Part shown: positions 43,859-58,500 of the stretch, one piece after another
Numbering within the stretch: position 1 is the stretch's first letter
Layout: each line of letters begins with the position of its first letter
Source: Candidatus Bathyarchaeota archaeon
GTDB lineage: Archaea; Thermoproteota; Bathyarchaeia; Bathyarchaeales; Bathycorpusculaceae
Direction of reading: 5' to 3'
NCBI GenBank assembly: GCA_026014545.1
Contig: JAOZIH010000007.1
Coordinates: forward strand, 1-64,000
DNA: 64,000 nt
Notes under the pieces: model-generated
Told to the model about the DNA's origin: nothing
Seen by the model: the letters and a program-made list of their open reading frames with translations, nothing else
The model's database searches: none
Translations under genes and position numbers: made by a program

Positions 43859-43911
43859 AAATATAAAATATTGAGTGGGGCTTCGTTTTTATTCTAATTC
43901 AGACTCAGAAG
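43859..43911 (+). promoter_or_regulatory. Promoter and operator of the TrmB-like regulator gene
   Basis: TATA-like AAATATAAAAT at 43859-43869. Element TTCTAATTCAGACTCAGAAG at 43892-43911, on the expected transcription start and 9 bases before the ATG. Its complement aligns with elements upstream of three archaellum promoters. A partial copy (TAATTCAGAA, 43851-43860) touches the TATA box. Confidence 0.6.
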
Positions 43912-43920
43912 TGCTTCTTC

Positions 43921-44805
43921 ATGGAAACTTTCCCAGAGGAACCTCAGCAAATCACACTGCAAGACGAAAACATCGATTACTGGACGTTTATCCAGAAAGA
44001 ATCCGTCAAATCCATCGAGGAGATTGAAACCATACTTCAAGATCTTGGGCTTTCTAAAAATGAAATTCAAGTTTATTTGTATCTTGCTCTTTACAATGAA
44101 CGAAAAGCAAGCGAAATTTCTAAGGCACTACATCTACATAGAACTAATACTTACCAAATACTGCGCGATTTAGAGAAGAAAGGTATAGTTTCATCGCGTC
44201 TCGAAAAACCATTAAAATTCGTTGCTACACCATTTGAAAAAGCCATTGACACACTTATTGAAGCGAAGAAACTAAATCTGCAAACATTAGAAAGAAAAAA
44301 GAAAAATCTGGTCAACGTGTGGCTGTCTCTTCCTAAACCCAAAATTGAAAGCAGCCAGAAAGAAATTTTCCAAATACTCGAAGGAGAAGAGCAGGTAACC
44401 CTAAAAATGGCAGAAGCCATTCAAAACGCGCAAAACGAAATTGCCCTCTTTATCTCCGAAAATGACATGGTTCCATTTTATAACGCAGGGCTACTAGAAC
44501 CGCTTCAGAAAAATTCAAGTCTTGATGTTAAGCTATTAACAGATAACTCGCCCAAAGCTCGTTTTTTCGTGGAAAAATTGCGACTGCAAAATAAGCGTTA
44601 TGCATCGACGGAAATCAACTCTATTCCCACCTTTGCTTTAATAGATCGCAGCTGCCTGATTTTTCTGATTAAATGCTTCGCTGAAAAAAGTGGCAAGAGA
44701 GCTGCGCAGCCGGGAATTTCTGCTTTATGGACAAATTATGAAGCATTCATTAAAGCGTTAAGCGCGCTATTTACTCAGTTATGGAACGGCGGGAACAAAA
44801 CCTGA
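43921..44805 (+). CDS. TrmB-like transcriptional regulator
   Basis: 294 residues. A winged helix of TrmB type is at about 34-110 (IETILQDLGLSKNEIQVYLYLALYNERKASEISKALHLHRTNTYQILRDLEKKGIVSS). A coiled linker (about 115-145) leads to a C-terminal PLD-like effector region (EIFQILEGEEQVTLKMAEAIQNAQNEIALFISE ... LDVKLLTDNS). TrmB proteins sense sugars or other small ligands in known cases. It is the only regulator beside the archaellum locus, and its own promoter carries the same 20-bp element as three archaellum promoters, so it is a good candidate for controlling motility. Confidence 0.85.
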   Translation: METFPEEPQQITLQDENIDYWTFIQKESVKSIEEIETILQDLGLSKNEIQVYLYLALYNERKASEISKALHLHRTNTYQILRDLEKKGIVSSRLEKPLKFVATPFEKAIDTLIEAKKLNLQTLERKKKNLVNVWLSLPKPKIESSQKEIFQILEGEEQVTLKMAEAIQNAQNEIALFISENDMVPFYNAGLLEPLQKNSSLDVKLLTDNSPKARFFVEKLRLQNKRYASTEINSIPTFALIDRSCLIFLIKCFAEKSGKRAAQPGISALWTNYEAFIKALSALFTQLWNGGNKT

Positions 44806-44880
44806 CGCAAGAAGTAAAAGCATGAATGAAAGATAAGTTTTGGCTTCAAAAAGGAGAGCATAAAAAAGAAGGGATGGGTG

Positions 44881-45522
44881 TTAGCCTAAATCAATGAATG
44901 AGTTTGCTGGCATACCACCCGGAGCTGTTCGCACCACAGTCAAGGCCGCGCCTTTCGGCGTTCTGACCTCCACTTTCACAGTCTCGTAATCGCCAACCAT
45001 GCCGTCAGTCGAGTTTGAAGCCAACCGTATCATCAAGAAGGCTTTCTCGTTGGATTCCAATACCGTATCACCGTCGCCATTGTAAATTGCAAATTTAGCT
45101 TGCGTATCTGCCAAAGCTAATGAGCTGTTCAGTGCATCCCAACTTGTGCTGCTTGCCGTTGCTGCACCTTGGTAGATGTTGAGGTAAGTCGCGTTCGGCA
45201 AGTAAACCGAGACTATGATTGACTCGTTTTTGAGATCGACAGAAGCCTTCCCAGCCGATAGCTTTACGGGAATAAGCAAATAGAGTATTTCGCTTGAGCT
45301 TGTGTTTGTCTTCGCCGTCACGACGCCGTCGAGCTGCAGAGCCGTCAATGACTCCTCAAGTCCTGTTTGCATTGTTTCCTTGGTTTTTTGTGTGGTGTAG
45401 AAGCCCATGTTGATGACTACGTAGCTTAGTGCGGCGGCGATTATTATGAAGGCTATCAGCACTATAGCCGCCTCAACGCCTACAATTCCCCGCCTGCTTT
45501 TAGAAAGTTTCTTGAGGATCAT
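44881..45522 (-). CDS. arlB: Archaellin (type A copy 1)
   Basis: 213 residues. Class III (prepilin) leader MILKKLSKSRRG, predicted cleavage after Gly12, then IVGVEAAIVLIAFIIIAAALSYVVINMGF, the helix that packs in the filament core. The remainder is a beta-rich outer domain with N-x-S/T sites suited to N-glycosylation. The ATG abuts the TAA of the preceding archaellin, so both are on one message. The N-terminal coding region shares 94 identical bases with the copy at 46397. Confidence 0.92.
   Translation of the reverse strand: MILKKLSKSRRGIVGVEAAIVLIAFIIIAAALSYVVINMGFYTTQKTKETMQTGLEESLTALQLDGVVTAKTNTSSSEILYLLIPVKLSAGKASVDLKNESIIVSVYLPNATYLNIYQGAATASSTSWDALNSSLALADTQAKFAIYNGDGDTVLESNEKAFLMIRLASNSTDGMVGDYETVKVEVRTPKGAALTVVRTAPGGMPANSFIDLG
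45383..45476. repeat. 94-bp repeat shared by two archaellin genes (copy 1)
   Basis: Identical over 94 bases to 46938-47031. It encodes the N-terminal helix of type A archaellins. Flanking sequence diverges abruptly. Confidence 0.85.
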
Positions 45523-46161
45523 TTACACGTTCACCCAGGTGTCTTTTGGCATTGATTCTGGAATAGTGAACTCTAGCGACAGCGGCGCTGTTTTCTCTAA
45601 TCGTATCTCAATGTTTATCTGTGCTCTCACAGTAGCAGCATTTGCACTGCCGAGTTTTATAAGGAGAAAGCCCTTTTCGTTTGAGTCTAATGTTTCGTCG
45701 CCATTGCTATTCTGAATGAAAAGCATGGCGCTGTTATCAGTAGGAACCGCGGATAGCAGTGCTGTGAAATTCTGGCCAGTGGGGTCCAAAGTGCTGTTCA
45801 CGCCTTTGTACACGTTTGCCCAGGCATTTGCGCCTACCTTCAGCGTTACAACAGTCGTGTTCTGCCACATGGCGACATACTTAACGCCGTAGGCCTTCAA
45901 GGGGATGAGCAAACCTGTCACGTTGGCGCCGTCAGTTGATGTTTTCACGAATATTGTTCCATCAACTGCAAGTGGTGTGCTTGCTTGTTTTAGTCCTTCC
46001 TGTATTACGGTTTTGCCGCGTTCGGTTGCGAATACGCCCTGGTTGATGACCATGAAGCTGAAGACTGCGGCGATTATAACGAAGGCTATGAGGATTATGG
46101 CTGCCTCTAAGCCGACTATGGCGCGCTTTTGCTTTGCAAAGTTTCTCAGTTTGCTGTTCAT
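45523..46161 (-). CDS. arlB: Archaellin (type B copy 1)
   Basis: 212 residues. Class III leader MNSKLRNFAKQKRA with cleavage predicted after Ala14, then IVGLEAAIILIAFVIIAAVFSFMVINQGVFATERGKTVIQEGLKQAS. The -1 residue is Ala where the other copies have Gly; both are accepted by archaeal prepilin peptidases. The outer domain begins TPLAVDGTIFVKTSTDGANVTGLLIPLKAYGVKY. First gene after the promoter element at 46287-46306; followed without gap by type A copy 1. Confidence 0.92.
   Translation of the reverse strand: MNSKLRNFAKQKRAIVGLEAAIILIAFVIIAAVFSFMVINQGVFATERGKTVIQEGLKQASTPLAVDGTIFVKTSTDGANVTGLLIPLKAYGVKYVAMWQNTTVVTLKVGANAWANVYKGVNSTLDPTGQNFTALLSAVPTDNSAMLFIQNSNGDETLDSNEKGFLLIKLGSANAATVRAQINIEIRLEKTAPLSLEFTIPESMPKDTWVNV
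45973..46030. repeat. 58-bp repeat shared by two archaellin genes (copy 1)
   Basis: Identical to 47654-47711. It encodes part of the region just after the core helix in type B archaellins. Confidence 0.8.
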
Positions 46162-46268
46162 TTTCTATTTCCTCCTTTGAGGCGTGTTAGCGTTTTAGGG
46201 GCGATGTTTATATTAAAACTTATGAAATGCTAATTTGAATCACTAAAATTTGTAATTTTGATTCGAAT

Positions 46269-46306
46269 TTATATAAAAATAACAGAATTAAATTCTAAAT
46301 CTGAAC
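46269..46306 (-). promoter_or_regulatory. Promoter and operator upstream of the proximal archaellin pair
   Basis: On the minus strand, GTTCAGATTTAGAATTTAAT (46287-46306) lies 7-8 bases upstream of a TATA box TTTTTATATAA (46269-46279), about 110 bases before the archaellin ATG. The 235-base gap between the two archaellin pairs holds nothing else recognised. Confidence 0.6.
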
Positions 46307-46396
46307 AAGAAGATTCATCAGCCGCAAAACACAACCCAGCAATTTCAGCCTTAACAAACCTGAACGCTATAAAAATAGAAAAAGGAGGAGAGAATG

Positions 46397-47071
46397 TCAT
46401 CCCAAGCTAACATAAGATTGCGGAAGCATACCGCCAGGAGCCATTCTTTCAATTGTTAACGCTGCACCTTTTGCACCCTTAATCTCAATTGTAATGATCT
46501 CATAGTCCGCAAGAGTGTGCTGCCCGCCGCCAGGTGGACTTTCATCCAAGTGGATCACGAAGAAAGCTTTCTCCGTAGTTTCCAGCACCGTGTCTCCGTC
46601 ATCATTATAGATTATGCCCATGGCGTAGTCTTTCTCTACGCTACTTGCGAACAGCGTAGTCATGTTAGCCAGCACTTTTTCTAGATTGACTGGATCAGCG
46701 CCGTATATAGTCTCATTAAACACCCCTCGGTAAATATTTAGCAGCGTAGCATTCGGCAAGTACGCAGTCAATGCAAGCGTTCCATTCTTCAAGTCCATCG
46801 CAGCCCTTCCAGCGGAAAGCTTAACCGGAAACACTATCCATTCGATATGCCCGTTTCCGTCAGTTTTTGCCGTAACCACGCCGTCCAGTTGCAGCGCATT
46901 TAGCGATTCCTCTAGACCTGAAGCCATTGCATCTCTTGTTTTTTGTGTGGTGTAGAAGCCCATGTTGATGACTACGTAGCTTAGTGCGGCGGCGATTATT
47001 ATGAAGGCTATCAGCACTATAGCCGCCTCAATTCCAACGATACCTCGCTTGTTTTTCAATAACTTCCACAT
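46397..47071 (-). CDS. arlB: Archaellin (type A copy 2)
   Basis: 224 residues. Leader MWKLLKNKRG, cleavage after Gly10, then IVGIEAAIVLIAFIIIAAALSYVVINMGF, the same core helix as type A copy 1. The outer domain diverges from copy 1, with extra Asn-x-Thr sites (GVFNETIYG, ANMTTLF) and a proline/glycine-rich loop PPGGGQHTLAD. It follows type B copy 2 by 12 bases and is presumably cotranscribed with it. Confidence 0.92.
   Translation of the reverse strand: MWKLLKNKRGIVGIEAAIVLIAFIIIAAALSYVVINMGFYTTQKTRDAMASGLEESLNALQLDGVVTAKTDGNGHIEWIVFPVKLSAGRAAMDLKNGTLALTAYLPNATLLNIYRGVFNETIYGADPVNLEKVLANMTTLFASSVEKDYAMGIIYNDDGDTVLETTEKAFFVIHLDESPPGGGQHTLADYEIITIEIKGAKGAALTIERMAPGGMLPQSYVSLG
46938..47031. repeat. 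94-bp repeat shared by two archaellin genes (copy 2)
   Basis: Identical to 45383-45476; see that entry. Such identity inside otherwise diverged genes suggests recent gene conversion or strong constraint. Confidence 0.85.
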
Positions 47072-47083
47072 GCTTTTTCACCT

Positions 47084-47962
47084 CTAAGCGACAGGCACAT
47101 AATTATTCGCAGGCATAGATGCAGGCACTGATAATTCAATTGAAAGCGTTGCGCTTGTCTCAAGCCGTATCTCAATGTTTATCTGCGTTCTAGCTGAAGC
47201 GGCAGCATCCGGCGCTAGTCCTATCAGCAGAAATCCTTTTTCGCCTGTGTCTAATGCCTCGTCACCGTTGCTGTTTACTATTGCGAGAACAACTCCTGTT
47301 GTGAGGCCTTTGCTATGGCCGTTGCTGTATGTCTCATTTACATAGACATTGCAAGGTTGGCCGGTCACTGTTTGATTGGCTAATTGGAAGCCTGCAAAGT
47401 CATCGAATTCTTTGCCTGTTGGGTCATACGTTAAGGTGGTTGCGTTATAGGCTGCGCCGTTTGGGTAGCCAACGTATAGCACGCCTAAGTACGCGTTTGC
47501 CCAGGCTCTTTCGCCTACTCTCAGAACTACGACTGTCTGGTTTCTGCCTGCGGGTACATATTTCACGCCGAAAGCTTTGACAGGAATAACGATAAGATCC
47601 ACTTTCGTGCCGTCAGGTGTTGTGCGCATGAAAGCCGTGCCATCTATTGTTAATGGTGTGCTTGCTTGTTTTAGTCCTTCCTGTATTACGGTTTTGCCGC
47701 GTTCGGTTGCGTAAAGTCCCTGGTTTACAACCATGAAGCTGAAGGCGGCGGCGATTATAACGAAGGCTATGAGCACTATGGCTGCTTCTAGACCTATGAT
47801 GCCTCGCTTTTGGTATGCAAAGTTTTCGATTAGGTATGCTCTTTGCTGTGTGTTGCGGATTTTTTGGTTGCATGAAGGGCAAGTGACCATTCTTAGTTTT
47901 GATTTTGTGTGCCAGTAGTATCCGCATTTGTTGCATTTTATGTTTGGTTTTTGTCTTTTCAT
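47084..47962 (-). CDS. arlB: Archaellin (type B copy 2) with a zinc ribbon in its leader
   Basis: 292 residues. Residues 1-54 form an unusually long leader containing IKCNKCGYYWHTKSKLRMVTCPSCNQKI, a CxxC-14-CxxC zinc ribbon (Cys10, 13, 28, 31). The class III site QKRG follows (cleavage after Gly54), then IIGLEAAIVLIAFVIIAAAFSFMVVNQGLYATERGKTVIQEGLKQAS. Ordinary archaellin leaders have about 6-15 residues. Met25 could be an alternative start but would split the ribbon. The outer domain is longer than in the other copies. First gene after the promoter element at 48040-48059. Confidence 0.9.
   Translation of the reverse strand: MKRQKPNIKCNKCGYYWHTKSKLRMVTCPSCNQKIRNTQQRAYLIENFAYQKRGIIGLEAAIVLIAFVIIAAAFSFMVVNQGLYATERGKTVIQEGLKQASTPLTIDGTAFMRTTPDGTKVDLIVIPVKAFGVKYVPAGRNQTVVVLRVGERAWANAYLGVLYVGYPNGAAYNATTLTYDPTGKEFDDFAGFQLANQTVTGQPCNVYVNETYSNGHSKGLTTGVVLAIVNSNGDEALDTGEKGFLLIGLAPDAAASARTQINIEIRLETSATLSIELSVPASMPANNYVPVA
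47654..47711. repeat. 58-bp repeat shared by two archaellin genes (copy 2)
   Basis: Identical to 45973-46030 in the type B copy 1 gene. Confidence 0.8.
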
Positions 47963-48024
47963 TTCTGCTACTTCCTCTACTTAGACTACTACTACTTACA
48001 CTGAATATGTATTGTGTATTAAGA

Positions 48025-48059
48025 TTTAATAAACATTCTTGGATAATCCGAATCAGAAC
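48025..48059 (-). promoter_or_regulatory. Promoter and operator upstream of the distal archaellin pair
   Basis: On the minus strand, GTTCTGATTCGGATTATCCA (48040-48059) lies 5 bases upstream of a TATA-like GTTTATTAAA (48025-48034). The archaellin ATG is about 65 bases further downstream. Confidence 0.6.
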
Positions 48060-48147
48060 ACAAATAAATTAAAAATTCACCAAAACCACAAAAAACCTTT
48101 GCAAAAAATACACAAAACCAACTAAATTTACATCAACAAAAGCAAGA

Positions 48148-49791
48148 CTACACCGGCAACTCTAAACTCGGCATCGAACCCAACACGCTCTGTATCAAAG
48201 CACGACCAACCATCCACGTGAACCCACTTAATATCAAAAGCAACCCAAAATTCAAAAAGAAAGTACCCCAATATCCAGCTGAAACCTCTTTAACAATCAA
48301 AGCATTAGCCAAAGCCATAACAAAAACCACAACTATGTTACCTGCCTCAATTATCGCCATCGGTATCTCATTAAAACCAAAATACGGCAAGTTAATCAAA
48401 TATTGAGACATAAAACCAGCCAACACCTCCAAAATGACTAACAAAACCACCGTCATAGGCTGCATAACCAAAACCAACGTCTGAAAACTCTTCGCAACAG
48501 CATCCCGCATCTTCCTAAACTCCAGAAACTTCACCACGCGATTTCCCAATGCATTACCTATCACAAGCGCATTGGCACCTCTATTCAAAGAATCAAGCAA
48601 TATCTTGTTACTCATATGCACCTGATAAGACGCCGCTTCTGAAGAAAGCGTTTCCAGCGCCTGCTCATGGTTTATTCCCAACTTAACTCTCGCCAATGCT
48701 TCTTTAACAAGTTTACGAAGAGGTCCCAGCTCCATGTAAAGAATATACGAAAGAGACGCCTTCAAATCGGCGGTAGAAGCCAGATTCTCTCCTAAAGCCT
48801 TCAAAAAAGTCGGATAATTCTTATTGATTTTATTAACATACTTCTCAAGCATGTAACCAAAAATCCCCGGAATGAGCGTACCAAAGCCAAGCACTATGAA
48901 AGCGATAGGCGGTCCCATGGCAAAGTAAAGGAAAAACGCAAGCACCGCCGAAGACGGAACAGTGGCTAAAGCGCCCCATCTAAGCAGAGAATACAGTTTT
49001 GGAGGGTACTTCCCTATATAGATAAGTTGTTCTTTAGGTGATGCGGATCTGAAAAGAAAGTACATCATTACTGTAGCTAAAATCGCAATCAAATACCCGA
49101 AAACTATCGCGCTTGGATCGATCATGAAAACAGTCATAATAACTAAAGTCATAATCAAGAAAACTGTGATGCTCTGAAAAGTCGTAAAGATTCCGCCAAG
49201 AGTCTTTAAAGTTTCAATCGCACGCGTATAGTAACCCGAATACTCCTCCATAAGCATAGAAGCCTCCATTTCCAAGTATCCCCGAGGCTCAACACTCGAA
49301 AACACGTTTGTACAACGAACAAGAATATCCTTAAGCGGTGACTTAACGGTCTCAGCCACATGCGCCGTTGCCTTCGTAAGTCCAAACCCGAAATCCTTCG
49401 CCAAGTTCCGTATTCTCCTGAAGACTCTGCTGTAAAAACCATATTCCCTATTATCAGCGATCACGTTCACTAAATCCGATGGCGACGTTTCACCAAGCGA
49501 CAAACCATACATGTGAAAAATGGCGGTTGTAAGCATATAATCAATTTTGGTCCTAAGCTGCTTCTTTGACACCCGCTTTAATAAAAATGAAAAGCCCACA
49601 CCTATGAAAAGGCTAAGTAGTCCCTCCAATATTTTCTCGCACAGCAGATAGTATGCTGAGAAAAGTATGGATGGAATTAGAAGCAAAAAAAGCCTTTTAG
49701 AATCCGCTATTGCCAAGGAATCCTCATCTCTTTTACTTTCCGATGAACTTCCCATACTCCCTGATTCCGAACAGCAATTATAGTCTTCCAA
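48148..49791 (-). CDS. arlJ: Archaellum membrane platform protein ArlJ (FlaJ)
   Basis: Polytopic membrane protein on which the motor ATPase ArlI works; related to TadC/PilC. Up to 547 residues with about nine hydrophobic helices in N- and C-terminal groups, separated by conserved cytoplasmic regions rich in charge (KALGENLASTADLKASLSYILYMELGPLRKLVKEALARVKLG ... FLEFRKMRDAVAKSFQTLVLVMQPMTVVLLV). The first ATG (49791) lies 85 bases inside arlI; ATG 49755 shortens the overlap and may be the real start. Last core gene before the archaellins. Confidence 0.9.
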   Translation of the reverse strand: MEDYNCCSESGSMGSSSESKRDEDSLAIADSKRLFLLLIPSILFSAYYLLCEKILEGLLSLFIGVGFSFLLKRVSKKQLRTKIDYMLTTAIFHMYGLSLGETSPSDLVNVIADNREYGFYSRVFRRIRNLAKDFGFGLTKATAHVAETVKSPLKDILVRCTNVFSSVEPRGYLEMEASMLMEEYSGYYTRAIETLKTLGGIFTTFQSITVFLIMTLVIMTVFMIDPSAIVFGYLIAILATVMMYFLFRSASPKEQLIYIGKYPPKLYSLLRWGALATVPSSAVLAFFLYFAMGPPIAFIVLGFGTLIPGIFGYMLEKYVNKINKNYPTFLKALGENLASTADLKASLSYILYMELGPLRKLVKEALARVKLGINHEQALETLSSEAASYQVHMSNKILLDSLNRGANALVIGNALGNRVVKFLEFRKMRDAVAKSFQTLVLVMQPMTVVLLVILEVLAGFMSQYLINLPYFGFNEIPMAIIEAGNIVVVFVMALANALIVKEVSAGYWGTFFLNFGLLLILSGFTWMVGRALIQSVLGSMPSLELPV

Positions 49792-51377
49792 ACATCAGTA
49801 AATGAGGGAAAATTCTCTGCAAGAAAACTTAGTATCTCCGCCCTAGCCTTCAATTCATCATAAAGTTCCCGTAACCTCTCTTTTCCCCAACCTCTGAAAG
49901 CGAGGACTTTGTTCTCCAAATGATAGCTTGAACCCATAAAGCGAAATTGATCTACATCAGCATCATACATGAATATGGGCAAAAAGTTTAATCGCCCTTC
50001 ATCAGGCTCATAACCAATAATTTCGTTAATTGAAGTCATTCTACGAATGAACTTTTTTCCCCGCTCCATTCTAGCCTGAAAAATAGCCAAGTTCAATCCG
50101 TCTATATGCGTCTTCGGCACGTCAATCGGATGTGACGTAAGTCTTTGAAAAAGCTGCCCCAGCGTTCCTGCGTGCATTGTTGAAAGCACAGGATGCCCGG
50201 TCTCGATGGCTTGAAAAGCTATTCTGCCCTCTTCTCCCCTTATCTCGCCAATAATGATATAGTCAGGTCTCTGCCTCAAAGCCGCTTTCAACAAGTCAAA
50301 CATTGTAACTGGCACGCCGGTGTGTAGTCGCGTAACTTCTCGTATCCAGTTTTTATGGTAAACACTTATTTCCGGCGTTTCTTCAATGCTAATTATCTTT
50401 GAGTCAGAATCAATAAAACACGTAAGCGAATTCAACGTCGTTGTTTTACCTGAAGCAGTTTCTCCGCAAATTATCGCCGAGACGCCTATCTCAAAGAGCA
50501 TCCACAAGTACGCCGCTAACTCCGCCGTAAACGTGTTCCACTTGATTAATTGCGCTACTGAAATGGGTTCTTTCGGAAACTTGCGCACAGTAAAGTTGCT
50601 TCCTCTTAGACTTATGTCCTCGCCAAAAACAATGTTCAGCCTTGAGCCATCCGGCAGATGAATGTCAATTATGGGGTGCATGTAGCTTAAAACTTTCCCG
50701 TATCTTTCCGATATGCTTCGCAGCAAATTATCAATTTCCTTCTTCGAAACATTCACGCTTGTCTCCAAATGCCCAAACAGCTTATGATAAACGAAAATGT
50801 TGCCTGCACCTGGAATGCTTATGTCCTCAAGCGCTGGATCAGCCAAAAAACCGTCTAAAAAGCCATGGCCAACTTTTTCTCGCAAGAAGTGATATAGAAG
50901 AATTTTTTCATCTACTCCCCTAGGGAGCTTCACCATTTTACTTTTGATCGCGCGCTTAAAGAGGGCAGCCAAAATATTTTCTTTTTGCCCCTCATACTCT
51001 CTGTCCTCAACCAATCTCGCAACTGCCATCTCTATTTTGTCTAATAATTCGCGATCCGGCTTCGGAGGTTCTATCAGGGCATATTTGCTAATTTCTCCGC
51101 CTACCGTGACATGTGCATAAATACCTAAACCCAAAGGATACATCACATTAGTTTCTTTCTCAATTTTTCCGGCGTCAAGATTCGGAACATATTTTGGCGT
51201 TTCAGGCAAAGTGTTCAGATAATCCGCCAAGTACGGGTGCTCTTTCACCGCGCTCTCTAAGGTTTCGCAGACGGTTTTCTTAAAAGGCCACGGATCTTCT
51301 TTCACCTCAGTTTTGGGCGATTTGCTGTTAAAGCCAAATTTTTTAAGCGCTAAATCAAGTTTGCCTCTCATAAGCAT
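49707..51377 (-). CDS. arlI: Archaellum motor ATPase ArlI (FlaI)
   Basis: 556 residues of the type II/IV secretion ATPase superfamily; powers assembly and rotation of the archaellum. Walker A GETASGKTTTLNSL (about 313-326), Asp box/Walker B region IIGEIRGEEGRIAFQAIETGHPVLSTMHAG with the His box, and the N-terminal regulatory domain with GHGFLDGFLADPALEDISIPG. 6 bases separate it from arlH. Confidence 0.94.
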   Translation of the reverse strand: MLMRGKLDLALKKFGFNSKSPKTEVKEDPWPFKKTVCETLESAVKEHPYLADYLNTLPETPKYVPNLDAGKIEKETNVMYPLGLGIYAHVTVGGEISKYALIEPPKPDRELLDKIEMAVARLVEDREYEGQKENILAALFKRAIKSKMVKLPRGVDEKILLYHFLREKVGHGFLDGFLADPALEDISIPGAGNIFVYHKLFGHLETSVNVSKKEIDNLLRSISERYGKVLSYMHPIIDIHLPDGSRLNIVFGEDISLRGSNFTVRKFPKEPISVAQLIKWNTFTAELAAYLWMLFEIGVSAIICGETASGKTTTLNSLTCFIDSDSKIISIEETPEISVYHKNWIREVTRLHTGVPVTMFDLLKAALRQRPDYIIIGEIRGEEGRIAFQAIETGHPVLSTMHAGTLGQLFQRLTSHPIDVPKTHIDGLNLAIFQARMERGKKFIRRMTSINEIIGYEPDEGRLNFLPIFMYDADVDQFRFMGSSYHLENKVLAFRGWGKERLRELYDELKARAEILSFLAENFPSFTDVWKTIIAVRNQGVWEVHRKVKEMRIPWQ

Positions 51378-51383
51378 GTTCTC

Positions 51384-52085
51384 CTAAATCTTTACTCCGC
51401 TGAGCGGCATCACTCTTAAGCCTATTTGCGGGTTGATCTCAAGAGAAATAGCGCTTTTCCGCTCTCCGCTTACTCCCCAAAGCTTTACGATTCGCAGCAC
51501 TTTGACATCTATACCCGAGATGCTCGCATTTTTCAGCACGAAATAAACGTCGGAGCTTGCTCTAAGCTTCATTATGGACTCTTCAGAAAGAAATTCTGGA
51601 TGAAAAGTGATAAGTACAGTTTTGCCATCTGAAACCAAGTTTTTAAGTCGAGTAATAAACGTCAAAAATTCATATGGAGGTGTATCCACAGTTAAAACGC
51701 TTAGACTGTCAATAATTACGGCATCATAATGTTTTTTCTTTAGCTCAAGAAAGTTCGTGGTTACCCTTAAAAAGAAGGAGCTGAGAAACTCGCTCCATCT
51801 TCCGCCCTCAACATGCAACGGATAAATGTTAAATTGCCCTGAAAGGTAGTAACTGTACGGGTCAAGCTTAACAGACTCCATCATAGACAGGTATTCTTTT
51901 ACAGTGGCCTCGCTGGACACTACATAGACTCTTAATCCGCTTTTGAGCATTGCATAAACTACTTGTTGGACAAAAACAGTTTTTCCCGAGCCATAATCTC
52001 CCTCAATCGATATCAGACTGGGGGTCGGTATTCCACCGCCAAGATCTCTGTCTAACTCTGGTATCCCCAAGCTTATAACTTGCAT
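51384..52085 (-). CDS. arlH: Archaellum ATP-binding protein ArlH (FlaH)
   Basis: 233 residues, RecA/KaiC-like. Walker A EGDYGSGKTVFVQQV (about 29-43) is followed by YDAVIIDSLSVLT as Walker B. Known ArlH binds ATP and forms a ring under ArlI, acting as a regulatory part of the motor. Its start overlaps the end of the preceding arlF/G gene by 1 base. Confidence 0.92.
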   Translation of the reverse strand: MQVISLGIPELDRDLGGGIPTPSLISIEGDYGSGKTVFVQQVVYAMLKSGLRVYVVSSEATVKEYLSMMESVKLDPYSYYLSGQFNIYPLHVEGGRWSEFLSSFFLRVTTNFLELKKKHYDAVIIDSLSVLTVDTPPYEFLTFITRLKNLVSDGKTVLITFHPEFLSEESIMKLRASSDVYFVLKNASISGIDVKVLRIVKLWGVSGERKSAISLEINPQIGLRVMPLSGVKI

Positions 52086-52609
52086 TATTCTTTGACAGCC
52101 TCCCCTGATGCGGTTACGCCATAATGTGAAGCAAAAGTTACAGAAACAATGCCTTGCGCGGGAATTTCCGGTGCTCCATTGGGAATGGTGAATGCTAAGC
52201 TCACTTCTTCTCCAAAATTCAAATAATCATGAATGCTTGGGCTAAACGTGCTGTTTGTCCCAGAAACTCTAATCTCCAGTATTTCATATTCTTCAATAAG
52301 GTATGAATGCCATTGAGAACCTTCCCCATAAGACAATATTATGGTATTCCAGTTGAACCCGTTTTGGTTTTTCAGAAAAATCGTTTTCGACCCGAGATTT
52401 TTAACCGTAACAATGCATCCTGTAGCATTTATCGCTTCAATAGTGAGCTGTAATTTGACATCGATTTTGGCTCTTTCATGGCTTATATAAGCTTCAGCAG
52501 TATAGTAAAGCTCCTTTATGCCCTGAAAAAAGGCTGTCGTAAAAGAGGCAAAAATTACTAAGAATCCTATGAAAACGATAGCCGATGCCAGCGTTACCGA
52601 GAAGCCCAA
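52085..52609 (-). CDS. Archaellum stator protein, ArlF/ArlG-like (second)
   Basis: 174 residues. N-terminal membrane helix GFSVTLASAIVFIGFLVIFASFTTAFF, then a beta-sandwich resembling the archaellin outer domain (DVKLQLTIEAINATGCIVTVKNLGSKTIFLKN). ArlF and ArlG form the stator contact with the S-layer. Gene order (CDE-x-x-H) fixes both as ArlF/ArlG, but which is which cannot be decided from sequence alone. Confidence 0.82.
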   Translation of the reverse strand: MGFSVTLASAIVFIGFLVIFASFTTAFFQGIKELYYTAEAYISHERAKIDVKLQLTIEAINATGCIVTVKNLGSKTIFLKNQNGFNWNTIILSYGEGSQWHSYLIEEYEILEIRVSGTNSTFSPSIHDYLNFGEEVSLAFTIPNGAPEIPAQGIVSVTFASHYGVTASGEAVKE

Positions 52610-52618
52610 GTGCTCACC

Positions 52619-53122
52619 TCAGGAAACTGGTGCTGGAAAAAGGTAGCTGCTTCCTATTCCTTTTGAAGGAACTATTTTTGCTTCAAAGATGGTGCCGTTT
52701 AAAATGCTACTTGGGTAGGCTCTTATTGTAACGGTTTCTCGTGGCTCCCAAACACCATCGCCGTTAGCATCTGCAATGGTAAATTGGCCGCTACCCGCCT
52801 CAGCTGTTGCATTATAAGAGTATAATTGCGCCTGGCAGTATTCGCCAACATAAACGTCTAGATACGCAAAATCTTTGAATGGCAAATTGCCAACATTTTT
52901 TGCGTAAATTGCAAAGTGCGCGGGTGCTGTGGAGTTGTCCACTGTAGCATAAACTATTTCTAATTGGAGGTTAGCCATTCTCTTGGCGTCGCTAATGTTT
53001 TGCATTAACTCACTTTGTACGACATTGCCTGTGTAGAATGCATATGCGGAAAAAGCGCTTGCCAAACACACGGATGCTATGACCATGATTATATGCGACA
53101 GCGTTACAGAGAAACCCATCAT
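52619..53122 (-). CDS. Archaellum stator protein, ArlF/ArlG-like (first)
   Basis: 167 residues with the same layout as the next gene: GFSVTLSHIIMVIASVCLASAFSAYAFY membrane helix, then LQLEIVYATVDNSTAPAHFAIYAKNVGNLPFKDF and strand-rich C-terminal part. The shared GFSVTL start suggests that the two arose by duplication. The start overlaps arlCDE by 4 bases. Confidence 0.82.
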   Translation of the reverse strand: MMGFSVTLSHIIMVIASVCLASAFSAYAFYTGNVVQSELMQNISDAKRMANLQLEIVYATVDNSTAPAHFAIYAKNVGNLPFKDFAYLDVYVGEYCQAQLYSYNATAEAGSGQFTIADANGDGVWEPRETVTIRAYPSSILNGTIFEAKIVPSKGIGSSYLFPAPVS

Positions 53123-53979
53123 TCAGCACCTTTTGCCGATTTCACCCTTTTCAGTTGATTTTCAGTTAAGGCGATGAGTGTTTCCACATCTTGATGACTT
53201 ATACTAACTTTTGAGATTGCAGCCGCCCTGTACAGATTGAGTAGTAGGTATCCCTTTGTGAATCCTTTTCCTCGAAGTTTTTCAGCTACAACCGCTAAAG
53301 AATAGATAATCTCGTTGGTTTGTGGTGGCAAATAGCCCATATACTCGCAAGAACATGCAAGCTGGTGTATCTCACTTGCTTTTAATCCAGCTTCTAGGAG
53401 ATCCCAAATCCAGTCTAAATATGCAGAGCTGACTTTAGACAGTTTTGATTCTACGGCGCGTGTTTCTTCAATATTTTTGATTTCTGGTTGAATTTGCATT
53501 TTGGGCTCTGAAGTAAATTGTGCTTCTACGTTTTTTGTCCTAGTTTCTTCTCTATTTTCCTCAGTAGCCACACCACTTTCTTGGGGCTTTTCTAAAATAA
53601 TTGATTTAACGCCGGGCGGCAATCTTTCGTCGCTTATGTTTTTCAAGTCTTTTTCGCTTGAAATTGTTCTTAGCAGGTTAAACGGGTTTTCAATTTCGCT
53701 GACGGCGGAGCGGATGTCCACAATAGATTTCTTGAGTTCAGTTACTGTTGTCTGCAAATCATTTGATAATTTGTTAACATCTGATTTCAGTTTGGATAAT
53801 TCATCTTCTGCAAACTTGTTGTTGTTTTTGTCTGAGGTTTGGGGAATCTCTTCTTGGGTGCTCTTTTCTTCTTCAGTTTTTTTGGTGTTAGCGTTTTTTT
53901 TATCTAACAATGCGAAGCTTCTCCTTTTGTGATCTGAACGTATGCATTTATCATACGAATCTATAATCATATTTAACAT
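53119..53979 (-). CDS. arlCDE: Archaellum switch-complex protein ArlC/D/E-like
   Basis: 286 residues. A charged low-complexity N terminus (15-60), a coiled coil (about 55-100, ELSKLKSDVNKLSNDLQTTVTELKKSIVDIRSAV), then a conserved C-terminal domain AYLDWIWDLLEAGLKASEIHQLACSCEYMGYLPPQTNEIIYSLA typical of ArlD/E. In Euryarchaeota this complex links the motor to chemotaxis; TACK archaea with short loci usually lack it and use ArlX. No che genes lie in the window. First gene of the archaellum operon; divergent from ftsZ. Confidence 0.8.
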   Translation of the reverse strand: MLNMIIDSYDKCIRSDHKRRSFALLDKKNANTKKTEEEKSTQEEIPQTSDKNNNKFAEDELSKLKSDVNKLSNDLQTTVTELKKSIVDIRSAVSEIENPFNLLRTISSEKDLKNISDERLPPGVKSIILEKPQESGVATEENREETRTKNVEAQFTSEPKMQIQPEIKNIEETRAVESKLSKVSSAYLDWIWDLLEAGLKASEIHQLACSCEYMGYLPPQTNEIIYSLAVVAEKLRGKGFTKGYLLLNLYRAAAISKVSISHQDVETLIALTENQLKRVKSAKGAE

Positions 53980-54031
53980 GTGTGAAAATCAAATTAAGAT
54001 TTATAAAAATGGTTGCTTAGATTCAAATATT

Positions 54032-54065
54032 GTTTAAATTTTAGAATCTAATTCGAATTCTGAAC
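54032..54065 (-). promoter_or_regulatory. Promoter and operator of the archaellum core operon
   Basis: On the minus strand, GTTCAGAATTCGAATTAGAT (54046-54065) lies about 5 bases upstream of the AT-rich box AATTTAAACA (54031-54040). A second TATA candidate ATTTTTATAAA (54000-54010) lies nearer the ATG at 53979. The element is the one seen at the archaellin promoters and at the TrmB-like gene. Confidence 0.55.
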
Positions 54066-54217
54066 TAAACTAAATGCGCATTCAAGCTATGGTTTAAATA
54101 ACTAGTTTGCTGCAGGTGGATTGTCTTTTTAAGTTTTATTTCAAAAACCGTATTAATTCGTAAGACGTAATATTTATTAGTTTGCGCGTCTTTAAAAATA
54201 CAGACAGAGGTGAAAAA

Positions 54218-55288
54218 TTGCAAACCGAACAAATATTTGCAGAAGCAAGAATACCCACAGAAACACAAGAAGAAAAAATCGAAAAATTTGCGCGGCTCGC
54301 CGTCCCGACAGTAGTAGCTGTTGGTCTCGGAGGCGCAGGATGCAACGTTGTAAGCTGGGTCAAGGAAAGAGGCATAGCAGGCGGCAAACTCGTAGCAGTA
54401 AACACCGATGCGAATCACCTTAAAATCACCAAAGCTGACAAACGAATTCTAATAGGCGAAAAATTAACACGCGGACTCGGCTGTGGCGGCTACCCTGAAA
54501 TAGGCGAAAAAGCCTTACGAGAAACCGCAAACGAAGTCATAAACGAAGTTGCTAGTGCCAACATAATCTTTTTAGTAGCCGGCCTAGGCGGAGGAACAGG
54601 AACAGGCGCAATAATAGGCTTAGCTGAAGCGTTACGCGACAAGTTTTCAAGTTCAGGCTTGCCCCATCTGGTTGTCGGTGTCGTTACACTTCCCTTTGAT
54701 GTTGAAACAGCCCGAATGTCAATTGCTAAAAAAGGCTTGGACAGGCTAAAAGCAGCATGCGATACGGTTGTAGTTATCGATAACAACAGGCTCGTCAAAG
54801 TCGCAGGAAATCTGCCTTTCAAAGAAGCCTTGGGAGTAGCTAATACCACAATCGGCAAATTCGTAAAGGGCATCACGGAAACAATCACCACTGCGAGCTT
54901 GATCAACTTGGACTACGCTGATTTAAGAGCAATAATGTCAGGAGCAGGATTAGCGTCCATAGGCATAGGCGAAGGTTTTGGAGAAGGCAGGGTGGAGCAA
55001 GCTGTTGAAAAGGCATTAAACGATCGCCTTCTGGACATTGAAGATGTGACGAAAGCACGTGGCTTGCTTATTCATGTTGCAGGTGGCGATGACCTGACGC
55101 TATTTGAAGTTAACCATGCCGCTGAGATTATGAAGCGCTCGTTACCGCCAAAGGCAAAGATCATCTGGGGTGCGAGAGTTGACAAAGAACTAAAAGGCGC
55201 CGTTTCAGTGATGGCTGTTGTGACTGGCGTAGAGAGTGCATTCTTGAAGAAACGTGAAAAACGGTTAGGTCCAATTAGACTCTGGTAA
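54218..55288 (+). CDS. ftsZ: Cell division protein FtsZ
   Basis: Tubulin-like GTPase that forms the division ring. About 356 residues from TTG 54218-54220, chosen because GAGGTGA lies 5 bases upstream; a TTG 12 codons earlier is in frame. GTP-binding motifs: VVAVGLGGAGCNVVSW, NTDANHL, AGLGGGTGTGA (tubulin signature) and LPFDVE. The T7 loop reads INLDYADLRAIMSGAGLASIGIGEG, with the catalytic Asp residues. This is the FtsZ rather than CetZ type. The C-terminal tail ends EKRLGPIRLW, probably a partner-binding peptide. Confidence 0.95.
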   Translation: MQTEQIFAEARIPTETQEEKIEKFARLAVPTVVAVGLGGAGCNVVSWVKERGIAGGKLVAVNTDANHLKITKADKRILIGEKLTRGLGCGGYPEIGEKALRETANEVINEVASANIIFLVAGLGGGTGTGAIIGLAEALRDKFSSSGLPHLVVGVVTLPFDVETARMSIAKKGLDRLKAACDTVVVIDNNRLVKVAGNLPFKEALGVANTTIGKFVKGITETITTASLINLDYADLRAIMSGAGLASIGIGEGFGEGRVEQAVEKALNDRLLDIEDVTKARGLLIHVAGGDDLTLFEVNHAAEIMKRSLPPKAKIIWGARVDKELKGAVSVMAVVTGVESAFLKKREKRLGPIRLW

Positions 55289-55522: not shown

Positions 55523-58500
55523 ATGGTTCAGAATCGTGATTTGATGTCAGAGGATGAATTTCTGTCAATTGGAGAAAAGTATGCTTCGCCGATGTCGCGT
55601 CGCATTGAAGACTGGAAATATCGGCTCATAGACCTATCGCGGCGAAACAGCTTACTGTATTTCACGCCCAGTAAAAGAGGGAATCTTTTCATTTCTCGTC
55701 CAAACATGGAAGCAATCTTCAACAGACTTGTTTTAAGAAAACGGAAAATGGCGTTTTGGTACCCTCCTGAAGAGGAGCATTTTCAACAGCCGCTGCAATC
55801 CGGGAACGGATTACTTAGCAGTGAAAAAAACAAGCCAGCAGCAAATCAACTCGTATGCGACGGGATCAGCAGAACCGATCTTGAAAGAGTCCTCAAGAAC
55901 CTCTACAGACGTTCGCTTCTGGATTATAGAGAACGAGGCATACGGCTATTGCATATCTCTTTTGGGATGCTGGTCTGGAAAGAAAAAGAAACTTCCGAAG
56001 AAGTCCGTTCGCCTCTAATCCTTGTACCAATCGAGTTAAAAAGGGAATCCTTTAGGGCGCCTTTCTTTATTTCCGTTCCTCCTGTAGAAGAAGAGGTAAT
56101 TCTGAATCCTGCTTTGCAAGTGAACTTGAAAGCTGTTTTTAAAATCGAACTTCCACCTTTACCTGAATATTTGGAATACCAAAGTCTAACTGAATACCTT
56201 AGTGCTGTTACGAAACTTGCTGCCGAACACGGTTGGCGAGTAGAAGATACTGTGGCAATTGGGCTTTTCTCGTTTCACAAAATAGTTGTTTATAATGATC
56301 TTGACGCAAATGAAGCCATAATAAAGCGGCACCCTCTAATTCGCGCTATTGCCGGCGTTGAGAAAATCCCGTTCACTCAAAATTCTCTTCCCACAGAAAA
56401 AGACGTAGACATAGTGCAACTGCCTGAAAAGTCATTTCAAGTTCTCGACGCAGACAGCAGTCAAAGAGTAGCGATTGAGTATGCCTTGCGTGGGCAAAGC
56501 TTTGTGATTCAAGGTCCGCCTGGTACAGGCAAAAGCCAAACAATAGCCAATATTATCGCTGAATGCATAGCTCACGGAAAATCTGTCCTATTTGTCAGCG
56601 ATAAAATGGCTGCTCTCGAGGTGGTTTATAAGCGGCTACGCGAGGTTGGCTTATCCTCATTCTGTTTGGAGCTTCATAGCAGCAAAGCCAATAAGCAAGA
56701 AGTTGTAGCTGAGCTTAAACGTTGCCTTGATGAACAGCTGGTTCCTCGTAAACTGCCCGCTGAGCATGAGTTTAAGCGCTTTGCTGAATTACGAGAAAGC
56801 TTGAATAGTTATGTAGTTTCACTTCATCAAAAACGGGCTCCTTTACAGAAAAGCGCGTATGAAGTGTTAGGCGAACTTTCGCGCTTAGAATATGTTCCAT
56901 TTGTCCAAGTTGAATTTCCCAATGTGGAAAGCTTAACTCCACAGAAACTGCATGAGATAGAACATTTGATGCATCGTCTGAAACATGTTTGGCAAGTTGT
57001 GGAAGACCCGGATTTCCCATGGCGCGGCTATCGCGGAAACAATTACAATGTAGAGATTCGTTCAGAATTATCCACATTTCTCAATAATCTAATTTCAGCC
57101 ATAGAAGCGTTGAGAGTAGAATCTGAAAAATTTGCAAAACAATTGGGCTTAAAAGCTCCCGTAACATTTGATGAGATTAAATGGCTAATTGAAATAAGTA
57201 ATCTTTTATTGGAGAGTCCTAAACCTGAAGCAAGCTGGGTGATGCATCCCAATCTTGATCAACTAATCTCTGAAGCAGAAACATATCGTTCAATGGCTGA
57301 GTGGTGTAGAACAACACGCAACCGTTTACTGGAGCATTATAGCCCCGATTTATTCAATTTGCCTATTAGTAAGTCTGAAGAATTTGAAAAAGCCCTTTTG
57401 GCAATCAACAATTTGCTTCTACACTCAAACATAGAAGAAAGCGCGCTTCTTAAAAAACGGGAGAAGCTCTTAGATTTCGCCAAACAGACCATTGCTTTAT
57501 CAGAAAAATGGAAAGAAAAAGCACAACAGCTTGCTTTGCTGTTCGGTTTGCCAACAGAAAATCTTACACTTGACCGAATTAGACAACTATCCCGCATCGC
57601 TCTTCTCTGCTTCTCAGAGAATAAACCTGAAGCCCTATGGCTGGATTCATCTTATTTCCAGCAAGTACAAGATGCTTTTCCAAAAATAAAGAAGACATAT
57701 GAAGAATATAATGCCCTGAAGCTTAAGCTGGAACAAACTTACACCGAAGAAATTTTCAAAATAAACCTTGATGGTTTAATAAAACGTTATAGTGAGTCGT
57801 ATCGTAGTTTCCTCCGCTGGTTACGCCCACGTTTCTATAGCGACCAGAAGCAAATAGCTCTTTTAACGCGTGATGGCAAAGTTCCGAAGTCTGTTTTGCA
57901 AGATTTGATTGAGGCGCGCAGGCTAAAGATGTTACGTGCCGAAATTGAGGCTTCTGCAAATACTGTTCAAAGTTTGCTGGGGCATTACTACAAGAGGTTC
58001 GGGACAGATTTTCAGGGAATAGAAAAAGCAATGGCAACTACATCAGAACTACTAAAATTATTAGCGCCAATGGGTGTACCTGCCAATATAGCTAGGCTAG
58101 TTTCATACGGGTCAGATCCACCGCTCGTGATTAAACAAGTCGGCAATGAATTACAGGAATCCTGTGAGAACTGGGATCAGCTTGCTATGGAATTAAGCGA
58201 CCTACTACCAATGTCCTATATGCCTAATTCTAGTTTGCCATTACATGAAACACCTATAGCAATGCTTCAAGAGTGGGCTCGCTTAGTTGAAAGGCATCTT
58301 GCCGCTCTCTGCAAAATGACAGAGGAAACTTTAAAGACAAATAAGAGTGGAGAACTGCCGAATTACAAACAATTAATTGCTGACTTAAAAGATGCTGAAA
58401 ATGTTAGAAAAAAAGAGACTGCAATCCTCGAGGAGGCAATGCATCTTCAAGCAAAATTTGGGTTCCGCTTTGCAGGACTTGAGACATGCTGGGAAGAAAT

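Follow-up and report, generated by a model that had tools for sequence, protein, structure and literature searches.

A 6-bp repeat array shared by the promoters of a TrmB-like regulator gene, an archaellum cluster and a cheY operon in a Bathyarchaeia genome

How might a member of the Bathyarchaeia control its motility genes? The question is raised by a stretch of 64,000 nucleotides (positions 1 to 64,000 of contig JAOZIH010000007.1, forward strand; hereafter the window) from a Candidatus Bathyarchaeota archaeon, whose genome (G000) comprises 1.86 Mb in 41 contigs. There, a gene for a TrmB-like protein lies tail to tail with a minus-strand archaellum cluster encoding two archaellin pairs, ArlJ, ArlI, ArlH, two ArlF/G-like proteins and one ArlCDE-like coiled coil, and the same gene arrangement is found in the relative G014. 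An earlier note on this DNA had aligned four 20-mers, one at the regulator gene and three in front of archaellum genes, and had claimed a shared element at all archaellum promoters. All four 20-mers were recovered letter for letter where it had placed them, on the minus strand, and the element is present in all three intergenic promoter regions of the cluster as well as at the start of the regulator gene. It is not a fixed 20-bp element, however, but an array of 6-bp units, GAWTYN. The arrays, with their scores from the profile described below, are as follows.

43887..43911, minus strand: regulator element array, at the expected transcript start (43892-43911 of the earlier note plus one 6-bp unit; 16.2 bits)
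46287..46306, minus strand: element array before the second archaellin pair (16.0 bits)
48040..48059, minus strand: element array before the first archaellin pair (13.5 bits)
54046..54065, minus strand: element array before the ArlCDE-like operon (17.0 bits)

The array at 54065-54043, for example, reads GTTCA-GAATTC-GAATTA-GATTCT. Two adjacent units make up an imperfect 13-bp palindrome, TTCWGAWTYNGAA, and in the regulator array a register shifted by one unit matches as well as the register first noted. At a 6-bp lag, the eight genomes that carry the element had 26 GAWT pairs in their 22 archaellum promoters where 1.3 were expected, and 24 TrmB promoters had 16 where 1.1 were expected; neither count was reached in 200 shuffles. 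A further excess was found at lag 12 in both sets and at lag 18 in the TrmB set, and a smaller one at lag 7 (both sets) and lag 13 (TrmB set). Five family genomes lack the element, and in 12 of their archaellum promoters the counts were 1 versus 0.4 expected at lag 6, and 3 versus 0.3 at lag 7.

Such a resemblance might be a by-product of the AT-rich composition of promoters, and the looser search patterns fit that explanation. Across the genome, the 20-mer consensus with up to 3 mismatches gave 41 matches versus 45 for the control, and a three-unit hexamer pattern with up to 1 mismatch gave 32 versus 29, no excess in either case. In the genome-wide search that the earlier note had called for, the looser patterns thus occur at background rate. 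The core pattern TTCWGAWTYNGAAT with at most one mismatch occurs 46 times (strands counted apart) versus 23 for the reversed control. It is the core, then, that carries the specificity, rather than the full 20-mer, and we used the 14-bp core and a trained profile for this reason. Exact matches to TTCWGAWTYNGAAT number four genome-wide, two of them at archaellum promoters. In the window, the core with at most one mismatch has 5 matches, all inside the four sites; dinucleotide shuffles of the window gave a mean of 1.09 (standard deviation 1.26), and 5 was reached in 1 of 100. By the profile, the window holds four other sites at 12.0-13.8 bits, all within open frames of 469-1893 amino acids. A 400 kb sample of the genome, of which 52.4 kb is intergenic, contained 18 sites of at least 13 bits, none of them intergenic, and two intergenic sites of at least 12. 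A purely compositional origin is contradicted by the shuffle, permuted-profile and matched-intergenic controls and by conservation in relatives, and we regard it as very improbable.

Conservation was followed through the promoters of the regulator itself. Orthologs (48-58% identity) were collected from 29 of 99 relatives searched; further ortholog matches, outside these 29, lie in G018, G069 and G023, with a fragment in G008. The profile was trained by expectation maximisation on 24 of 28 ortholog promoters, near-duplicates being removed and the window, G014 and a paralog from the window's own genome being left out. Its 14-bp consensus is TTCtGa.T..GAAT. Widths of 12 and 18 gave other registers of the same array, and width 14 was picked as matching the palindrome seen by eye, before the archaellum promoters were scored and after they had been read. 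The profile scores at least 12 bits in 24 of the 28 ortholog promoters in-sample, and in 15 of 24 ortholog downstream regions, each left out of training, although these leave-one-out runs began from the full profile, so that their scores are slightly favourable. Among regulator promoters never used for training, that of the window scores 16.2 bits, that of G014 13.2 and that of the paralog 14.7. A TTCAGAA unit stands directly before the TATA box in 26 of 31 regulator promoters (window, G014 and paralog counted), or in 30 of 31 if one letter is left free. Close to the transcript start, ortholog promoters usually have another array, irrespective of which genes adjoin them. In most relatives, then, the element stands in the regulator's own promoter, which supports this part of the earlier note's interpretation.

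The profile obtained from TrmB promoters was then applied to archaellum promoters. It scored at least 12 bits in 15 of 19 such promoters from seven genomes with an ortholog (G000, G014, G052, G030, G017, G045 and G009), in contrast to 1 of 23 from 13 genomes without one. Control upstream regions from the same loci gave 0 of 79, and a difference as large as that observed was not attained by any of 200 column-permuted profiles. At the promoter of the second archaellin pair, the threshold was reached in 7 of 7 alignment genomes; the G004 site lies at a different place. Conservation at orthologous archaellum promoters was thus borne out by the comparison with relatives. In G016 and G028, the gene that usually flanks the ortholog is present with no TrmB gene in the adjoining 1.5 kb; G028, with a single readable promoter on a 4.4 kb contig, counts for little here. 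Promoter rows shorter than 60 bp (ArlCDE of L093, L094, L100 and L101, two of them empty) were dropped before scoring, and G094 yielded no archaellum promoter. Since the ArlCDE-like gene comes after the archaellins in the order-level genomes, the region upstream of it there may not be an operon promoter. The link between the element and the TrmB-like family is well supported, and we consider it likely, judging from sequence, that the TrmB-like regulator (43921-44805), or its immediate family, has this element as its operator.

The sign of control depends on where the arrays stand relative to the core promoters. According to passages of PMC4158304 and PMC4706686, thermococcal TrmB-type regulators activate when bound upstream of the transcription factor B recognition element (BRE) and TATA box, and repress when bound downstream; this rule, on which the earlier note had relied, was found in both sources. 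The relevant positions are listed here.

43859..43872, plus strand: regulator TATA box with the conserved TTCAGAA unit directly upstream
46208..46227, minus strand: core promoter of the second archaellin pair (TTTCATAA..TTAATATAA), conserved, 59 bp behind the element
48017..48033, minus strand: core promoter of the first archaellin pair, conserved, 6 bp behind the element
53968..53987, minus strand: core promoter of the ArlCDE-like operon, conserved, 58 bp behind the element
46232..46264, minus strand: another conserved stretch of the promoter of the second archaellin pair, lying between its array and its core (GAATCnAAATT..AAATTTTA...), from the alignment

The archaellum elements had been described as lying 5-8 bases upstream of a TATA-like box. 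This arrangement is conserved at 48040-48059 only; near 46287 and 54046, the TATA-like boxes (at 46268 and 54032) are unconserved in relatives and were ruled out as promoters. The regulator's element does lie downstream of TATA, its array beginning 14 bp behind the box. Positions match the TrmBL1-type rule at 48040 (upstream) and at 43887 (downstream), while the arrays at 46287 and 54046 are 58-59 bp from the conserved core. The array-core gaps differ by 52-53 bp, close to five helical turns, and all three archaellum arrays may face the same side, which is only suggestive as it comes from our own alignment of three cores. Both the promoter of the second archaellin pair (46232-46264) and the ArlCDE promoter (about 53990-54040) have a conserved palindrome-like stretch between array and core, around GTAAAwTTTAC. 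In relatives, this stretch reads GAATCnAAATTgTAAAwTTTACAAAT, and it may be the site of another factor.

Is the predicted regulon confined to the archaellum? Besides the paralog promoter, we inspected 20 places outside the window out of the 46 genome-wide core matches. At a threshold of at least 11 bits, 7 of these stretches had an intergenic site, 10 had sites only inside open frames and 3 had none; some of the open frames holding sites are short, so they are possibly not genes. One element (15.6 bits) precedes a methyl-accepting chemotaxis protein (MCP) gene adjoining cheB, and another (16.2 bits) lies 13 bp before the frame of cheY, which heads an operon with genes for CheD, two CheC, CheR and CheA. 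At the matching place in G014, an element of 16.8 bits lies 15 bp before the cheY frame as placed, and the piece beside this cheY encodes CheD and CheC-like proteins. The cheY promoter of G109 scores 3.2 bits and that of the first G105 copy 2.7. We made no use of the G094 cheY site (12.6 bits), which abuts the cheY match without an intervening in-frame start codon and may be coding, or of the site at the second G105 copy (11.9 bits), which lies at a distance of 172 bp in a region that this copy shares with a divergent TrmB relative. A conserved, promoter-specific element with 6-bp periodicity is shared by the regulator, archaellum and cheY promoters, and the regulon predicted from it is wider than archaellum and regulator, extending to chemotaxis.

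Intergenic matches also precede the genes of two other proteins, one of 135 aa (C38:2003) and the other a coiled coil of 136 aa (C6:64576). The match before the former (1556-1963 of L150) is exact in the core, and the protein has a hydrophobic N-terminus and no Pfam match. Two short coiled-coil proteins (L168 1312-1722 and L170 9147-9554) are alike and have no Pfam match; the 136-aa one has the element upstream, and the 135-aa one is divergent from cheY.

What kind of protein would read these sites? The gene products concerned are encoded as follows.

43921..44805, plus strand: TrmB-like regulator, 294 amino acids, with N-terminal winged helix-turn-helix (HTH), long helix and PLD-like C-terminal domain
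44881-45522, 45523-46161, 46397-47071 and 47084-47962, minus strand: four archaellin genes in two pairs (PF01917)
48148..53979, minus strand: archaellum assembly genes ArlJ, ArlI, ArlH, two ArlF/G-like and ArlCDE-like (operon ArlCDE-like/arlG-F-H-I-J)

Residues 39-106 of the regulator match PF01978 (E 6.3e-17; 61.6 bits versus a Pfam gathering score of 25.6). An AlphaFold2 model (pLDDT 84) predicts the winged HTH, long helix and PLD-like domain listed above; its top PDB matches in a fold search are TrmBL2 and then TrmB, and TrmBL2 is also closest by sequence profile. No C-terminal sugar-binding Pfam domain was detected at E 0.001. The fold search also returned TrmB chain 2f5t, titled sugar binding domain (E 3.4e-6, 143 columns), a match that probably arises through the PLD-like part of the model. 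Under the NCBIfam equivalog cut-offs, the regulator falls short of TrmB, TrmBL1 and haloarchaeal TrmB (21-25 bits versus 500-650) and of TrmBL2 (27.6 bits versus 530). In the recognition helix, R74, T75, T77 and Y78 are invariant across 42 aligned family members, and Y78 aligns with a Tyr of TrmBL2 that a passage of the review PMC4158304 names as important for DNA recognition. As to the neighbouring genes, the ArlCDE-like coiled coil has no Pfam match and was named from its position and coiled-coil look; its start is probably the TTG at 53910 behind AAGGAG (53896-53927) rather than the ATG at 53979. Beyond the cluster lie an ftsZ-like gene (54182-55288) and, downstream of it, a 1889-aa open reading frame (55523-61192) that is helicase-like, both named by reading.

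If this protein is the reader, the two-unit 13-bp palindrome would suit a dimeric winged HTH. The element lies upstream of the archaellum cores and downstream of the regulator's TATA, which by the TrmBL1 rule would mean activation and repression, respectively. The regulator would then activate the three archaellum units from upstream of their core promoters, and likewise the MCP gene. At its own gene, where it would cover the transcript start, and at the cheY operon, where its site is close to the beginning of the operon, it would limit transcription. Archaellum and chemotaxis genes would thereby be coordinated, with negative feedback on the regulator. Both the binding protein and the sign of each effect we infer here. 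The conserved TTCAGAA unit upstream of the regulator's own TATA makes simple autorepression uncertain and, together with the long array-core gaps, makes the predicted sign of control tentative.

Several observations weigh against the TrmB-like regulator or its immediate family as the reader of the element. At two archaellum promoters, the 58-59 bp between array and core are unlike the geometry of TrmBL1, and the MCP promoter of G014 scores only 8.0 bits. Four of the 28 ortholog promoters stay below 12 bits, that of L058 reaching only 7.8, and the four misses among the archaellum promoters are ArlCDE and FlaB1 of both G045 and G009. FlaB3 of G109 scores 14.3 bits though the genome has no ortholog, and the archaellum promoters of G004 score 16.2, 11.4 and 12.1 bits with no ortholog found in an assembly that is 94% complete. 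A tree built from ArlH, ArlI and ArlJ implies 3 changes of the element and 4 of the ortholog, and three independent contrasts agree in 2.8 of 3 on average, too few for significance. Of 90 family genomes, 21 carry an ortholog at 52% identity or above (the window's own and the G008 fragment included) and 13 are archaellated (12 with full ArlH, plus the truncated locus of G016), an ArlH search of the 90 revealing no further archaellated genome; 7 carry both archaellum and ortholog. Fourteen of the 21 ortholog-bearing genomes are without ArlH, which means that archaella are not the regulator's only target.

The G004 case, together with the additional conserved stretch that two promoters have between array and core, would fit a third regulator that recognises the arrays and governs the TrmB-like gene as well as motility. 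Against such a regulator stand the presence of the element at most fetched ortholog promoters, in several families and with differing neighbours, and its absence from most archaellum promoters where the ortholog is absent; we think it improbable.

Another candidate reader is encoded in the same genome. The paralog (C3:54004-54846), 43% identical to the regulator, adjoins a type IV pilus operon, and its own promoter carries the element (12.6-14.7 bits). The archaellum arrays might be bound mainly by this pilus-linked protein, or by both paralogs, giving cross-control of pilus and archaellum instead of a one-protein switch, and the recognition helix conserved across the 42 members is compatible with this. 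Yet G105, G109 and G119 have only relatives of 37-41% identity, and 1 of their 9 archaellum promoters reaches 12 bits (the G109 site), and G052, G030, G017, G045 and G009 each have one family member at E 1e-45 or better and still carry the element. We find such cross-control unlikely, if somewhat less so than a third regulator, and retain the TrmB-like regulator of the window, or its immediate family, as the preferred reader; the paralog may nevertheless bind the element as well.

Genes of the family are neighbours of type IV pilus genes and of chemotaxis clusters; in G000 and G014 they also adjoin the archaellum cluster. Of the 29 ortholog loci, 8 are flanked by pilin and pilus ATPase genes. 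Among more distant relatives, pilus ATPase or membrane genes stand beside 13 of 19 loci, the paralog of our genome included, and three more such loci (two in G105, one in G094) sit in chemotaxis clusters. In the family tree, the two archaellum-linked proteins are sisters (support 99/97) and group with seven proteins of another family, mostly pilus-linked (100/99), and not with the other orthologs of their own family. This suggests horizontal transfer, with the proviso that long branches, flagged by the tree program, are involved. A role of the element in driving the adjoining pilus operons was rejected, since the pilin promoters inspected by eye do not show it and carry a different conserved motif, TACACACAAAT. 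In pilin promoters beside TrmB orthologs (e.g. L031, L051 and L059), this motif is often accompanied by a GTGTAGTACTGTTCTACAC-like palindrome.

Known archaeal regulators offer partial parallels. Passages of PMC4158304 and PMC4706686 describe, for TrmBL1/Tgr of Thermococcales, a TrmB-type HTH, a palindromic operator and, in TrmBL1, a position-dependent sign; the first two are alike here, and a sign of this kind is predicted. There, however, the operator is TATCAC-N5-GTGATA and the targets are sugar genes, whereas here motility genes are concerned, the regulator has no sugar-binding C-terminal domain by Pfam and two arrays lie far from the core. TrmBL2, the closest solved structure, also lacks the C-terminal effector domain, but it is 18% identical to the regulator and is described as a general chromosomal protein (passages of PMC4158304). 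In EarA of Methanococcus and Pyrococcus, repeated short sites likewise lie upstream of the archaellum BRE/TATA, with four 6-bp consensus sites in M. maripaludis (passages of PMC5512572 and PMC10665913); their sequence, A(C/G)(C/G)TACA(T/C), differs from GAWTYN, and it is by site sequence, not protein comparison, that we set the two systems apart. CsmR, which regulates the archaellum in Haloferax, is a winged-helix protein whose site, upstream of BRE/TATA, is semi-palindromic, but it has a mass of 13 kDa and the site is TATCA(N4)TGATA. Haloferax TrmB and TbsP influence motility and biofilm formation, an effect attributed to glucose metabolism, with no archaellum operator described in the passages of PMC13286277 that cover these proteins and CsmR. 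Finally, Haloferax hvo_0169 is a TrmB-family gene picked up in an adhesion screen, again with no archaellum operator described in the relevant passages of PMC5198076.

Archaellum regulators have been described, in the passages at hand, for Methanococcus, Pyrococcus, Haloferax and Sulfolobus. In a full-text literature search, no title or abstract start among the matches listed concerned a motility regulator of Bathyarchaeia. Here a TrmB-family regulator has apparently been turned to motility. One could go further, tentatively, and picture this Bathyarchaeia TrmB lineage as a master switch of surface filaments, in which one member, through the 6-bp-phased arrays, would activate the archaellum and MCP genes and brake itself and the core chemotaxis operon, while the pilus-linked paralog would read the same code, so that the two together would decide between swimming and attachment; this picture is doubtful, though less remote than the rival readers above. 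An operator defined by sequence, a candidate protein and a list of targets (archaellum, cheY operon and MCP) coincide, and together they make motility control in an uncultured lineage testable with purified protein and DNA. If the regulator does act in this way, the direct targets of the TrmB family would be extended to surface filaments, and archaellum promoters with short, repeated sites for an activator would have a second example.

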